In this document: positions 8,896 through 19,867 of the stretch, piece after piece
Numbering within the stretch: the first letter of the stretch is position 1
Layout of the letters: each line of letters opens with the position of its first letter
Source: Planctomycetota bacterium
Lineage (GTDB): Bacteria; Planctomycetota; UBA8742; UBA2392
DNA length: 64,000 nucleotides
Reading direction: 5' to 3'
NCBI GenBank assembly: GCA_022071975.1
Contig: JAJVIO010000005.1
Location: 1 to 64,000 of the forward strand
Made by a program: the position numbers and the translations under genes
Notes under the pieces: model-generated
What the model saw: only the letters and a program-made list of their open reading frames with translations
Told to the model about the DNA's origin: nothing
Databases searched by the model: none

Positions 8896-9697
8896 GTCTT
8901 CGAGCCGGGCGTTGAACAGCGAATTACCAATAACCAGTTTTCAATTACCAATTGGCTGGCGTGCAGTGGGACGGCCATGTCTGCAGTGGCGCGGACATTC
9001 TTGTCCGCGCTTTGAAACTGCATAAGCCACGCGGGGGCGCGAAGGCGCTAAGCGTCTTCTGCGATTCGACGGCCGCTCGTGTTCAGTGACAGGTTTCAAA
9101 CGCCAGGGCGCCAGGAACGCCACGGCCTTTTCGTGGCTTGTGCGTCCCTTGGTCAATCGGCTTGCAGCAACGTTGGAGCCGTGGCGCACCCTGGCGCCCT
9201 GGTGTTGATTGCAGCTCGGCTGGCCGATTGACAGTCAGCCACCAATCAGCCCTTTGCGCCTCCGCGCCCCCGCGTGGCCTGAAGCTTTTCTTCGTGTCCT
9301 TAGTGGGCAACCGCAGTTGCCTTTCAAACCGTGCGGCACACGGGAAGCGAACTGCAAAAAGCGATTGCCCACGAAGCCGCACGAAGTTCACGACGCACTG
9401 CAACTTCATTGGCAACACGAAGGAACTAAGGAGCGAAGAGTCCTGCGTGGTTCGAATGCGGTTTCTGTTCAGGGTCGGCGTCCAACGCCAGGGCGCCAGG
9501 AACGCCACGGCCTTTTCGTGGCTTGTGCGTCCCTTGGTCAATCGGCTTGCAGCAACGAATGAGCCGTGGCGCACCCTGGCGCCCTGGCGTTGATTGCAGC
9601 TCGGCTGGCCGATTGACAGTCAGCCACCAATCGGCCCTTTGCGCCTCCGCGCCCCCGCGTGGCTTGTTGCCGTTTGCTTTTTTGGGGATTCGACGAC

Positions 9698-14913: not shown

Positions 14914-15582
14914 CTACTCGGTCTCGCGGATGAAGCGGTCGATATCCCGGTTTTTGCCCACCAGCATCAGCACGTCGTTCGCCTCGGGCTTGGTCTCGGG
15001 GCCGGGGATGCTGATTGACTCCGCGCCCCCATCTGTGGCGGGCTTGCGGATCGCCACCAGGTTCACGCTGAAGTTCTTGCGCAACTGAAGCTCCAGCAGC
15101 GTCTTGCCCAGGATCGCCGACGGCGCCTTGATCTGCACGAAGCTGTGCTCGCTGCCGATATCCACGGCCTCCAGCAGGCTCGGCTTGGCCAGCTTCTGGG
15201 CCAGTTTCAGCGCCGCCTGCTCCTCGGGCATGATCACTTCGTCGGCGCCGAGGCGTTGCAGGATCGTGCGCTTCACGCGGTCGTTGGCGCGCGCGATCAC
15301 ACGCGGGTAGCTGAGGTCGCGCGCCGCCAGCATGGCCAGCTGGCAGGCCTCGAAGTTTTCGCCGATCGCGACCACCACGGTGTCCACCTTGCCCAGCCCC
15401 AGCGAGCGCTGGGTCTCCAGTTCCGTGGCGTTTGCGGTGACGGCCAGCGCGACCTTGTCTTTCACGCCGTCCACCACGTCGGGGTTGGTGTCGATGGCGA
15501 TCACCTCAAGCCCGTCCTTGGCCAGCGTCTCCGCCAGCGCCATCCCGAAGCGACCCAGACCTATCACTGCGACTTTCTGCAT
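14914..15582 (-). CDS. trkA: TrkA/KtrA-type potassium channel gating subunit
   Basis: A cytoplasmic regulatory protein that gates the membrane potassium transporter. The start at 15582 follows GAAGAG. Residues 1-130 form an RCK_N Rossmann domain with the NAD-binding turn VIGLGRFGMALAETL. Residues about 140-222 form an RCK_C domain, the subdomain known to bind c-di-AMP in KtrA and CpaA proteins. The protein is the single-unit KtrA length (222), not the doubled TrkA of enterobacteria. It lies 60 bases downstream of the trkH-like gene, and the operon is headed by a c-di-AMP riboswitch. Confidence 0.9.
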   Translation of the reverse strand: MQKVAVIGLGRFGMALAETLAKDGLEVIAIDTNPDVVDGVKDKVALAVTANATELETQRSLGLGKVDTVVVAIGENFEACQLAMLAARDLSYPRVIARANDRVKRTILQRLGADEVIMPEEQAALKLAQKLAKPSLLEAVDIGSEHSFVQIKAPSAILGKTLLELQLRKNFSVNLVAIRKPATDGGAESISIPGPETKPEANDVLMLVGKNRDIDRFIRETE

Positions 15583-15642
15583 GGGTTTCTCTTCCCGTTC
15601 CGGCACAACTTCGCGCCGGTCCCCGGCATTTACGCCGGGGCT

Positions 15643-17481
15643 CTACCCGATCATTACCTGTTCTTCGGGGTACTCGAACTTTCTTGCGTGCCTGCGGCCT
15701 ACAGCCAGCACCAGCGTCAGCGGCCCGATTCTTCCTATATACATGCACGCGATGATGATCAGCTTGCCCCATGGGGTCAATTCGGCGCTGACGCCGCTGC
15801 TCAGGCCCACGGTGCAGAATGCGCTGGAAGCTTCGAACAGAATTTGCTCGAAGCCGTGCCGCTGCGCGCCCATGCCCTCCGCTTCCGTCACCGTCAGCAG
15901 CAGCGTGGCGATGAAAATGAACGCCAGCGCCAGCACCAGCATCACCAGCGACTTGCGGATCAGCAGCTCCGGGATCCGCCGCTTGAAGGCCTCCGGCGGT
16001 CGGCCGCGCACGGTGCTGAGCACCGCCAGCAGCATCACGAAGAACGTGGTGGTCTTGATGCCGCCCGCCACGCTGCCGGGGCTGCCGCCGATCAGCATCA
16101 ACAGGATGGTCCAGAACTGCGTGCTGGTGGTGGTGTGCACGGTGTCGATGCTGTTGAAGCCGGCCGTGCGCGCCGCCATGGACTGGAACACCGCCGCCGC
16201 CATGCGGTCGCTGAAATCCATGGCGCTCATGCTGTTGTTCCACTCGAGCACCAGAAAGCCGACCGCGCCGACAAGCAGCAGGCCGACCGTGGTGACCAGA
16301 ACGATCTTGCTCTGGAGTGACAGGCGCGGCAGCTGCTGATTCTTGACGCGACGGCGGATCATCGGCACGCGGCGCAGTGCCGGGTGCGCCCAGAAGCGGT
16401 AGGTGGCAATCTCCATGATCACCACGAAGCCGATGCCGCCCAGCACCACGAGAAAGCTGAGGCTCAGCACGATCGGCCAGTGGCCCACGTAGCGCACCAT
16501 GTTGTCCGGGTACAGGCTGAAGCCCGCGTTGCAGAACGCGCTGATGCTGTGGAATGCCGAGTAGTACAGCTGTTCGCCGGGCGGCAGCAGGTTGCCCGCC
16601 GCATCCACCCAGTAGCCGTACAACCACCACACGCCCAGCGCCTCGATCGCGAACGTCGAGCCGAGAATCCACACCGTCACGCGGCCCACGCGCCCCACCA
16701 TCTCGAGGTTCAGGACTTCGCCCACGGCCGCGGTACCGCGCACGCCCATGCCGCGCCCGAACGCAAGCCCGAAGAACGCGGCGAAGCTCATGATGCCCAG
16801 GCCGCCGACCTGGATCAGCGCGAGGATCACCAGTTGGCCGAAGCGCGTCCAGGCGGTGCCGGTGTCCAGCACGGTCAGTCCGGTGACGCAGGTGGCCGAG
16901 GTGGAGGTGAACAACGCATCCAGGAACCCGATCGGCTGCTCGGGCGCGTGGGCGCCGGGCAGCATCAGCAGGCCGGTGCCCAGCAGGATCAACCCGGCGA
17001 AACTGCCCAGGAAGACATGCAGCGGGCTCTGCGCAAGGCGCGTCATGAAGCTGAAGGCGCGCAGCAACCGCAGGCAGACGAACGCGCCGAGGCCGGCCTG
17101 GGTCAGCAGCGCGAAGGCGCCGAAGGTTTCGGACTGGGACAACGCGCCGGTAATCCAGTGAGAAGCCAGGAACAGGCCCAGCCCCATCAGGGCGCCGACC
17201 ACCAGCGCCAGGGTGTCGGCGGGAGCCTGGCGCCAGCCTTCGGACAGCTTTCGGCTTGCGATGTAGACGCCCAGGGTTTCACCGATCAGTACGACCAGGC
17301 ACACAGACTGGAACAGCGCGATCCAGGGATCCCATGATTCGGGGAACGCCTCGCCGTGGAAGAGCAGGAAGCTCGCGAACGCCAGCAGCGAGGTGACGGT
17401 GTTGACCCAGAAATAGCGTTCGCGCCAAGCCTCGACGCGCTCGTCTGTGAAGATGCGGGTGATCAGCCTGGTGTCTGTCAC
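15643..17481 (-). CDS. trkH: TrkH/KtrB-family potassium transporter
   Basis: Inner-membrane potassium-translocating subunit. Four pore-loop segments of the SKT superfamily are visible: STSATCVTGLTVLDTG, SISAFCNAGFSLYPD, FQSMAARTAGFNSID and FEASSAFCTVGLSSGVS, each carrying the filter glycine. The 612 residues include about 130 extra N-terminal residues with several additional membrane spans compared with KtrB (about 450). The C-terminal subunit gene trkA follows on the same strand. Expression is probably switched by the c-di-AMP riboswitch at 17548-17700, so the same second messenger may control both synthesis and gating. Confidence 0.92.
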   Translation of the reverse strand: MTDTRLITRIFTDERVEAWRERYFWVNTVTSLLAFASFLLFHGEAFPESWDPWIALFQSVCLVVLIGETLGVYIASRKLSEGWRQAPADTLALVVGALMGLGLFLASHWITGALSQSETFGAFALLTQAGLGAFVCLRLLRAFSFMTRLAQSPLHVFLGSFAGLILLGTGLLMLPGAHAPEQPIGFLDALFTSTSATCVTGLTVLDTGTAWTRFGQLVILALIQVGGLGIMSFAAFFGLAFGRGMGVRGTAAVGEVLNLEMVGRVGRVTVWILGSTFAIEALGVWWLYGYWVDAAGNLLPPGEQLYYSAFHSISAFCNAGFSLYPDNMVRYVGHWPIVLSLSFLVVLGGIGFVVIMEIATYRFWAHPALRRVPMIRRRVKNQQLPRLSLQSKIVLVTTVGLLLVGAVGFLVLEWNNSMSAMDFSDRMAAAVFQSMAARTAGFNSIDTVHTTTSTQFWTILLMLIGGSPGSVAGGIKTTTFFVMLLAVLSTVRGRPPEAFKRRIPELLIRKSLVMLVLALAFIFIATLLLTVTEAEGMGAQRHGFEQILFEASSAFCTVGLSSGVSAELTPWGKLIIIACMYIGRIGPLTLVLAVGRRHARKFEYPEEQVMIG

Positions 17482-17507
17482 GTCACCCCCGGCGCGTTAT
17501 GCGCCAA

Positions 17508-17535
17508 CCGCCCGGCAGGCTAGTAATCCTGCCGG
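17508..17535 (-). promoter_or_regulatory. Hairpin between riboswitch and trkH start
   Basis: CCGGCAGG and CCTGCCGG (17512-17519 and 17528-17535) form a perfect 8-bp stem in the trkH leader, with no following T-run. A second short hairpin (GGCGC...GCGCC, 17491-17505) lies next to the ribosome-binding site. They could form the expression platform of the riboswitch. Confidence 0.55.
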
Positions 17536-17547
17536 TGCACGCAAATG

Positions 17548-17700
17548 AGGACGCCGTGGAACGCTCTATACGGCTCCTCTCCAACGCCTGCGGGGTTAGC
17601 TGACGGGCTCGGGCCGAAGAGTAGCCCTACGCTGGTGCGATTAGCCCCGGAAACCTGGGTCCCCCGCTCGCGCCTTTGCGTGGCGCGACTCGGCGATGAA
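17548..17700 (-). ncRNA. c-di-AMP riboswitch (ydaO/yuaA motif) in the trkH leader
   Basis: Read on the reverse strand, the leader contains in order the conserved blocks of the ydaO-yuaA aptamer. These are ATCGCCGAGTC, GCGGGGGACCCAGG, TTTCCGGGGCTAATCGC, GTAGGGCTACTCTTCGGCCC, GAGCCCGTCAGCTAACC and GCAGGCGTTGGAGAGG. CGCCG at the 5' end can pair with CGGCG near 17550 to close P1. Known members bind c-di-AMP and usually turn off potassium-import or cell-wall genes. Placement directly ahead of trkH-trkA fits. Identification rests on recalled consensus blocks, not a covariance-model search. Confidence 0.9.
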
Positions 17701-17705
17701 AAAAG

Positions 17706-18429
17706 GCTATCCCGCCAAAGTTGACGAGTCAATAGCAACCGCCCGATCTCACAAGCTGAGTGCGCACGCTTCCGCTGCGCGGTCGCGCGCAGTTATCACG
17801 CGAAGAAGCGACCTGTCCGCAGAAGCCTTGGCGCAGGCGGAAGGGGGCGAAGTTCGCGAAGAGTCCTGTGTTGTTTCAACACCGAGTGAGTAGAAAGACG
17901 TTGTTCACGCTCGACTGGCCGATTGACAGGCAGTCGCCAATCAGGTCTTTGCGCCTCCGCGCCCCCGCGTGGCAGATGCTTTACTTCGTGCACTTAGTGG
18001 GCGACCGCGGCGTCGCTTCCCGGGAGAAAAGCCAACTAAAAAAGAGGTTGCCCACGAAGCCGCACGAAGTTCGCGAACTACTGCAACTGCATGAGCCACG
18101 CGGAGGCGCGAAGACGCAAAGCAACTTTCCAAACTCGAACACTGCCTCTGTTCACGGTCTGTGCTTCAACGCCAGGGCGAAAAGAACGCCTAGGCTCTTT
18201 TGCGGTTTGTCCGTCCTTCGGCCAACGGATGTGCCGCAACGATTGAGCCGCGGCGCGCTTTAGCGCTGTTCCCGGTCCGACTGGTCGAGAGATGGACGAG
18301 CACCTGTCATCTCTTCGCGTCCCTTCGCTCCTTCCACCTTCGCCGAGGCTACGGTGGACAGGTCGCTTCTTCGCGTGAAAATACAATGCGAGGGCGAAGC
18401 ACGAGCGCGTCAACCTGTGTTCCGGCGAG
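17706..18429. repeat. Repeat-filled gap upstream of the potassium operon
   Basis: No gene is supported. From about 17770 the sequence is the same mosaic as other gaps. GCGCCTCCGCGCCCCCGCG (about 17951) has its partner GCCACGCGGAGGCGCGAAG at about 18093. CCCACGAAGCCGCACGAAG and ACGCCAGGGCGAAAAGAACG units are also present. The promoter for the riboswitch-led trkH transcript should lie near 17710-17770 on the reverse strand, but no clear -35/-10 pair stands out. Confidence 0.6.
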
Positions 18430-19698
18430 TCACGCGCCCAGCATGCGGCGGCTGATGCGCTTGCCGAGCTCGACCGCCGGCTGGTCGTAAGGGTTCACGC
18501 CGAAGGCCCAGCCGGCATACGTCGTCGCTATCTCGAGCCCCATCACCAGCTCGCCGAGTGTTGACGCGTCAAGATGCGGCAGGGTCAGCGTCGCGTTGGG
18601 GCGCTTGCGCTCGGTGCAGGCCTGCGCCGTGCCCGCCTGCTGTGAGTTGATCACCTCGCCCAGCGTCTTGCCCTGCACGTAGCCCGAGCCGAAGTGCTCC
18701 CATTCGAAATCGCCCAGCCTGATGTCCGGCCGGTGCTTCTCCACCCGCATGAACAGCAGCGCCTTGTCGTTCGGGCCTTCCAGGAACAACTGCAGCTGCG
18801 AGTGCTGGTCGCTTGCGCCCACGGCCGGGATCGCCGCCTGGCCCTTGCCGTCCTTGCCCAGGGACTCGTCCCACAACTGCACGAACCAGTCGGAGAGATA
18901 CTCCAGCCTTGAGCTGTAGGGCATCACCACCAGGCTGTGCTTGCCGCGCTTCAGGCACAGCTCCGGCGCCAGCAGGCCCAGCGTGGCGGGCCAGTCTTCC
19001 GCGGGCGCGCCATCGGTTGACAGGTCAACAGTGCGGGCGGCGCCCTGCAGCAGCGCCGCGATGTCGATGTTCATCAGCGCCGCCGGCGCCAGCCCGGCCG
19101 CGGTCAGCACGCTGAAACGGCCGCCCACGGCGGGCGGGATTTCGGCGGTCGGCAGGCCGTGGCGCTCCGCGAAGTCGCGCAGGTGGCCCTTTGCGGGGTC
19201 GGTGATGGCCAGCATGTGGTCGGCCAGCTTCAGGCCAGCCTTGTTCAGCTCGCCGGTGAAGTAGCCCAGCGCGGCCACGGTCTCGATGGTCCCGCCCGAT
19301 TTGCTGACCGGGATGAACAGCGTGTGCTCAAGTTCGATCGCCTCACGCACCTCGGCGAACAGCGTGGGGTCGGTGTTGTCCACCACGTGCAGCGCGGGCC
19401 CGCGCGGCCGCAGCGCATGCACCAGCATCTGCAAACCCAGCGAGCTGCCGCCGATGCCCAGCAGCACGATGTGCCTGTGCCTGCCCAGCAGCGGCTGGGT
19501 GGCGCGCAGGATGTTCTCGAGCACTTCGGCGTCGTGGGCCAGGCCCATGTGCGCGTGCAGGCCGTAGGCGCGCTCGGCAGCCAGTGTGTTGCGGTACTCA
19601 AGAATGCGCGGGTCCAGCGCCGCGACGGCGTCCTCGCCCAGGCCGTGTTCGCCCACGGCCGGCTCAAGCAGGTTGCTGATGTCGAGTTTGATCGCCAT
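18430..19698 (-). CDS. pgi: Glucose-6-phosphate isomerase
   Basis: It interconverts glucose-6-phosphate and fructose-6-phosphate in glycolysis/gluconeogenesis. The ATG at 19698 gives 422 residues, the short bacterial form. Signatures are LLGIGGSSLGLQML near residue 80, the SIS-domain phosphate loop VSKSGGTIET near residue 130, VVGGRFSVL-like PAVGGRFSVLTAAG, and the C-terminal DQHSQLQLFLEGPNDK. The upstream in-frame extension to 19812 overlaps the small neighbouring gene and is rejected. It ends the operon gpmI - 114-aa gene - 53-aa gene - pgi, so two glycolytic enzymes are cotranscribed. Confidence 0.93.
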   Translation of the reverse strand: MAIKLDISNLLEPAVGEHGLGEDAVAALDPRILEYRNTLAAERAYGLHAHMGLAHDAEVLENILRATQPLLGRHRHIVLLGIGGSSLGLQMLVHALRPRGPALHVVDNTDPTLFAEVREAIELEHTLFIPVSKSGGTIETVAALGYFTGELNKAGLKLADHMLAITDPAKGHLRDFAERHGLPTAEIPPAVGGRFSVLTAAGLAPAALMNIDIAALLQGAARTVDLSTDGAPAEDWPATLGLLAPELCLKRGKHSLVVMPYSSRLEYLSDWFVQLWDESLGKDGKGQAAIPAVGASDQHSQLQLFLEGPNDKALLFMRVEKHRPDIRLGDFEWEHFGSGYVQGKTLGEVINSQQAGTAQACTERKRPNATLTLPHLDASTLGELVMGLEIATTYAGWAFGVNPYDQPAVELGKRISRRMLGA

Positions 19699-19705
19699 CG
19701 CGCGG

Positions 19706-19867
19706 CTAGCTTGCCTTGCGCTTGCGGACTCGCTTCGGCGGGCGCACGGTGCGCCATTCAGCGGTTTGTTCTTTGATGACTTCCCGGCCATCCTTGTCGG
19801 TATAAATGACAAGGCAGGTGTCCGATTTTACTTCGGTGGGTGCTGCTTTCTTCCTGGCCTTGCTCAT
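19706..19867 (-). CDS. Small basic protein, 53 residues
   Basis: The start overlaps the stop of the 114-residue gene by four bases (ATGA), the usual sign of translational coupling. The stop lies seven bases before the pgi start. The protein begins MSKARKKAAPTE, has a short hydrophobic strand (CLVIYTDKDGRE) and ends in a basic stretch (RPPKRVRKRKAS). No family is recognised. The basic ends suggest RNA or ribosome contact, which is speculation. Support for it being real comes from its tight placement inside the glycolytic operon. Confidence 0.65.
   Translation of the reverse strand: MSKARKKAAPTEVKSDTCLVIYTDKDGREVIKEQTAEWRTVRPPKRVRKRKAS

Follow-up and report, generated by a model that had tools for sequence, protein, structure and literature searches.

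The reverse strand of the analysed window, a stretch of 64,000 nucleotides from a Planctomycetota genome, carries a genuine and correctly recognised c-di-AMP riboswitch (ydaO/yuaA, RF00379) ahead of a ktrB-ktrA potassium uptake operon. Our reading as a whole, to which we assign a probability of roughly 80%, is that of a functional riboswitch in the 5' leader of this operon, acting as a translational OFF switch and complemented by gating of KtrA. The element is a well-supported, yet ordinary representative of an established riboswitch class, in a phylum where that class has received little attention.

When the window was compared to all Rfam families with cmscan, a single match above gathering threshold was obtained, namely RF00379 at positions 17570–17705 (minus strand, as for all leader and operon features below). 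The score of 91.9 bits is far above the curated gathering threshold of 38 bits, which places the element in the c-di-AMP riboswitch class, and the E-value of 2.8e-20 excludes a chance match. All 134 model positions are covered without truncation, corresponding to a full-length aptamer. An initial sequence-only reading had recognised a ydaO/yuaA aptamer in the reverse-strand leader of trkH and had named a scan with the Rfam model as the check, which is passed clearly; its span of 17548–17700 denotes the same element, with ends displaced by 5–22 nt. The 3' end of the aptamer lies 88 nt from the start of the ktrB/trkH-like open reading frame. A genome-wide search of the 4.24-Mb host assembly yielded this one copy only, and in relatives the same aptamer recurs upstream of TrkH genes, both orthologues and paralogues.

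The first operon gene (15643–17481) starts with GTG and codes for a 612-aa K+ channel subunit of the KtrB/TrkH family (TrkH Pfam E-value 1.5e-59), whose best solved relatives are KtrB (3.8e-74) and not TrkH. The second gene (14914–15582) codes for a KtrA-type regulatory subunit with a single RCK_N and a single RCK_C domain (Pfam TrkA_N and TrkA_C), for which KtrC (1.3e-35) and KtrA are nearest. Its frame opens at 15606 and aligned relatives begin at the ATG at 15582, giving a product of 222–230 aa. Judged from these matches, the operon is of the Ktr type with a single-RCK KtrA rather than a classical double-RCK TrkA/TrkH system; the initial reading was right about a potassium uptake operon and wrong in calling it TrkH-TrkA. 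The combination of a KtrB-type membrane subunit and a single-RCK KtrA-type partner is that of Ktr K+ uptake systems (KtrAB/KtrCD), and the matches to solved KtrA and KtrB can be regarded as having already settled the fold of both proteins.

The RCK_C domain of KtrA aligns with 4xtt, the RCK_C domain of S. aureus KtrA (E-value 3.4e-12). In the region of the ligand pocket, residues R176, N182, A185, I186, P201 and P203 are the same as in 4xtt and do not vary among 15 family sequences. With R, N, A, I, P and P of the pocket region conserved, the domain is a candidate member of the c-di-AMP-binding RCK_C domains; the pocket residues are just as conserved in relatives without the riboswitch. This pocket type has been described (PMC8517857), and 4xtt was solved with c-di-AMP (reference 66 therein), in line with the earlier suggestion that the operon encodes an RCK_C protein of a c-di-AMP-binding type. 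By homology, the KtrA of this operon may be expected to be gated by c-di-AMP.

The host, considered beforehand as a possible planctomycete-like diderm, is indeed a Planctomycetota MAG. By comparison of the downstream protein, the closest named relatives, with 96% and 84% identity, are both Planctomycetota MAGs. Its genome encodes two diadenylate cyclases, the kind of gene for which the sequence-only reading had proposed to search. In L001, a dihydropteroate-synthase-like (folP) gene is followed by a CdaA-type cyclase of 264 aa (DAC 138.5 bits, CdaA_N slightly below the cut-off, motifs DGA and RHR in the translation). The following 428-aa gene has no Pfam match and is probably ybbR/CdaR-like, judged from gene order and length. 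The second cyclase (525 aa; L002:1438–3015, minus strand, contig C16) is a fusion of PTS_EIIA_2, DacZ_P and DAC domains; the combination of a PTS EIIA domain and the sensor-like DacZ_P with DAC is an unusual possible input to c-di-AMP synthesis. The host also encodes a 7TM-HD PgpH-like protein, presumably a phosphodiesterase with c-di-AMP as substrate. Two DAC genes together with a phosphodiesterase-like gene identify the organism as a c-di-AMP signalling host. A search of its genome for a KimA homologue, performed without a positive control, yielded none.

A putative promoter abuts the aptamer. The inverted repeat TTGACTCGTCAA at 17721–17732 contains in its first half a putative -35 box, TTGACT, supported by its spacing in family leaders and by the genome-wide excess of the palindrome. 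In 10 of 12 riboswitch leaders of the family, the -35 box is placed precisely 27 nt ahead of the aptamer start; in several relatives, the box reads TTGACA. The putative -10 box TAGCCT (17704–17709) follows 17 nt after the -35 box at a position conserved in family leaders; its agreement with the consensus is weak (3/6), and a stricter promoter scan did not match it. The promoter-like arrangement TTGACT-17-TAGCCT ends in the first bases of the aptamer.

Within the aptamer, the loop strand CUCUUCG (17615–17621) is complementary to the tail strand UGGAGAG (17577–17583), forming 7 pairs including G-U. This is the loop-tail pseudoknot of the solved ydaO aptamer, whose sequence carries the equivalent strands CUCCUUCG/CGAAGGAG (PMC5393176). 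The pairing recurs across the phylum with letters altered on both strands. Hairpin A (GAGGAGCCGU ... ACGGC-G-UCCUC; 17547–17579; -15.6 kcal/mol, z -3.35) is the probable switch stem of the expression platform; folding of 11 family leaders gave an equivalent in every one of them (z -1.7 to -4.4). The last three bases of the pseudoknot tail form the base of hairpin A, making the two structures mutually exclusive over 3 nt. Further downstream, hairpin B (CCGGCAGG/CCUGCCGG; 17512–17535), which shows a compensatory change to CCGGAAGG/CCTTCCGG in the relative L048, and hairpin C (GGCGC/GCGCC; 17491–17505), kept in L048, L050 and L051, precede the putative Shine-Dalgarno sequence GGGGG (17486–17490), which hairpin C directly adjoins on the 5' side, and the GTG start. 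GGGGG is also present in L048, L050, L051 and L060.

Starting from the observed parts (aptamer, operon, cyclases, phosphodiesterase-like gene, identity of KtrA and KtrB, conserved pseudoknot and hairpin A), we infer ligand binding, an OFF direction, a translational step and KtrA gating as follows. Transcription would start at the promoter that adjoins the aptamer. When K+ is replete and c-di-AMP levels are high, the aptamer and its pseudoknot would form, and the pseudoknot would take the base of hairpin A, freeing the pyrimidine-rich UCCUC strand. The freed strand would lower access to the GGGGG ribosome-binding site, leading to less synthesis of KtrB and KtrA, while c-di-AMP bound to the RCK_C dimer of KtrA would close existing channels. 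Folding predictions on native sequences, with the pseudoknot tail blocked in silico, gave a lower Shine-Dalgarno accessibility in 6 of 6 ktrB leaders. The decrease was strong in four (0.33 to 0.00, 0.73 to 0.14, 0.53 to 0.19 and 0.40 to 0.10) and slight in the window (0.35 to 0.26) and L050 (0.28 to 0.26). Of seven leaders from other families, all but L092 and L094 showed either a small change or a site that was occluded from the outset. Because predicted accessibility falls on tail blocking and the conserved hairpin A overlaps the pseudoknot strand, the modelling suggests translational OFF control by the ligand-freed UCCUC strand.

The main rival to translational OFF control keeps the same riboswitch but lets it act by premature transcription termination, with hairpin A and AUUUG(C/U) as a weak intrinsic terminator. 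In its favour, the switches of B. subtilis and B. thuringiensis are known to act by termination (PMC9960051, PMC6488665); hairpin A is also conserved, and several relatives have an imperfect U-tract, such as AUUUCUUGU, after it. However, of the 5 bases that follow the stem in the window leader only 3 are U, a consensus scan revealed no canonical terminator between aptamer and start codon, leaving an intrinsic terminator as expression platform unsupported by that scan, and pseudoknot formation would cost the stem its lower part, an effect opposite in sign to that of an OFF switch. We therefore consider termination rather unlikely. The mutual exclusion of hairpin A and pseudoknot over 3 nt would also fit an ON switch, in which c-di-AMP binding breaks hairpin A and expression proceeds; a terminator role of hairpin A would indeed give ON control. 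Such a switch would, however, raise K+ uptake while c-di-AMP signals ample K+, and in the known cases of kimA and kdp, both K+ importer genes, the c-di-AMP riboswitch in front acts as an OFF switch (PMC6488665, PMC9960051). Of all alternatives, we give this one the least credence.

The repeat that provides the putative -35 box is one of many copies of the palindrome TTGACNNGTCAA, which is confined to this family. It occurs 229 times in the host genome compared to 3 times for a reversed control (about 76-fold), 18–229 times in each of the 16 family genomes and 0–7 times in 25 other planctomycetes. The window contains five 12-nt copies, at 17721, 18561, 19017, 20334 and 40963, against 0.01 expected. 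Of 15 sampled copies, 13 fall within a long open frame and share one phase in it (xTT GAC NNG TCA A), on which ground we reject a general promoter element; it is a candidate for a HIP1-like or chromosome-organising motif. It is quite doubtful that the leader adds two layers to the known one, i.e. a translational c-di-AMP switch based on competition of the aptamer's pseudoknot strand with an anti-Shine-Dalgarno hairpin, and a promoter whose -35 box, as a copy of the family-specific palindrome spread over the chromosome, is bound by some protein. If true, K+ uptake would be coupled to chromosome-level regulation through this box.

All 16 family genomes contain a ktrB orthologue and 11 of them at least one riboswitch, which in relatives is located directly on ktrB in five leaders besides that of the window. 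In G006, the riboswitch is followed by trkH2, a shorter paralogue, and then by ktrB and ktrA, whereas its congeners G011 and G014 carry the riboswitch directly on ktrB, with no trkH2 in between. In G010, G013 and G015, the riboswitch lies in front of trkH2 at another place in the genome. No riboswitch was found in G001, G003, G008, G009 and G012, even at a relaxed threshold in the ktrB region, and a weak-threshold Rfam search detected no degenerate aptamer at nine riboswitch-less ktrB loci. The ktrB gene of the sister genome G001 is 84% identical and lacks a detectable switch; this patchy presence indicates that riboswitch control of ktrB is dispensable. In G008, G009 and G012, a phosphoglucose isomerase gene directly adjoins ktrB upstream. 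Its counterpart in the window (18430–19812, minus strand) lies about 950 bp upstream of ktrB, with the riboswitch in between. Related intergenic repeat elements (74–98% alike) occur at 9096–9666 and 17909–18266 of the window, one of them between the phosphoglucose isomerase gene and the riboswitch.

Elsewhere in the phylum, the TrkH gene usually found behind the switch is trkH2, and the congeners G011 and G014 of G006 have the switch directly on ktrB. It was therefore probably acquired together with trkH2 and came to serve ktrB upon loss of that gene. In the TrkH tree, several forks are under the support cut-offs and the outgroup row TrkH2_G010 is a wrong-frame translation, so only the relations among the 16 orthologues were used; presence of the riboswitch is patchy on it, and the tree does not settle gains versus losses. 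The patchiness and the gene orders in G006, G011 and G014 would also fit a relic aptamer, left after loss of its original target trkH2 and no longer controlling ktrB. This is very improbable given that the aptamer is of full length and high score, and that pseudoknot, hairpins and promoter spacing are retained, with compensatory changes.

The yuaA (ktrA) gene of B. subtilis is one of the two genes behind the name of the riboswitch. B. subtilis ktrAB shares with the operon described here the aptamer family, the KtrA and KtrB proteins and control at two levels by one messenger; riboswitch control of ktrAB and control of the transporter subunit through bound c-di-AMP have already been described there (PMC8517857). 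The planctomycetal operon differs in its gene order (ktrB-ktrA), its 612-aa KtrB with about 150 extra N-terminal residues, the lack of a canonical terminator and its diderm host. The C. glutamicum nlpC riboswitch likewise has no canonical terminator, and ligand binding is proposed to release a CUCC strand pairing with the ribosome-binding site (PMC9960051), similar to the pyrimidine-strand release proposed here; its target is a cell-wall peptidase and not a K+ channel operon. The switch of B. thuringiensis kdpFABC also precedes a K+ uptake operon, which codes for a Kdp pump and has a clear intrinsic terminator (PMC6488665). The initial reading saw, should the host be a planctomycete-like diderm, an extension of a mainly Gram-positive scheme. 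This holds for the diderm phylum, in which riboswitch-plus-RCK_C control of K+ uptake is now placed; given the KtrB/KtrA-type pair, what is extended is the ktrAB scheme of B. subtilis and not a new scheme. The extension is worthwhile, but not surprising. The terminator-less leaders offer material for dissecting the still-unproved translational mechanism.

A literature search, with many journals outside its coverage, returned no study of c-di-AMP riboswitches from Planctomycetes. RF00379 is present in at least 45 of 392 sampled planctomycete genomes (about 11%; a lower bound due to stricter filters), mostly in front of K+ importer genes, and is thus not special to the host genome. Genes downstream of 50 planctomycete switches code for ktrB-type TrkH (6), trkH2 (14), KimA-like permeases (14; that of L067 matches KimA with an E-value of 6.6e-63), Kup (2), Usp-fused APC permeases (6), Band_7 proteins (3) and unassigned products (5). 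K+ uptake genes (TrkH/KtrB, KimA-like, Kup) follow 36 of the 50 switches, or 42 when the Usp-fused permeases are included, which are weakly KimA-like and whose K+ role is less sure. A regulon consisting mostly of K+ import supports K+ homeostasis as a widespread function of c-di-AMP. In L096, one switch is followed on the same strand by trkH2 and a KimA-like gene, i.e. two types of K+ importer. In L091, L098 and L103, the riboswitch precedes Band_7/SPFH (flotillin-like) genes instead of K+ transporter genes, and in L055 (2338–2502, plus strand) an 81.6-bit c-di-AMP riboswitch is located in front of a methyltransferase-like gene.
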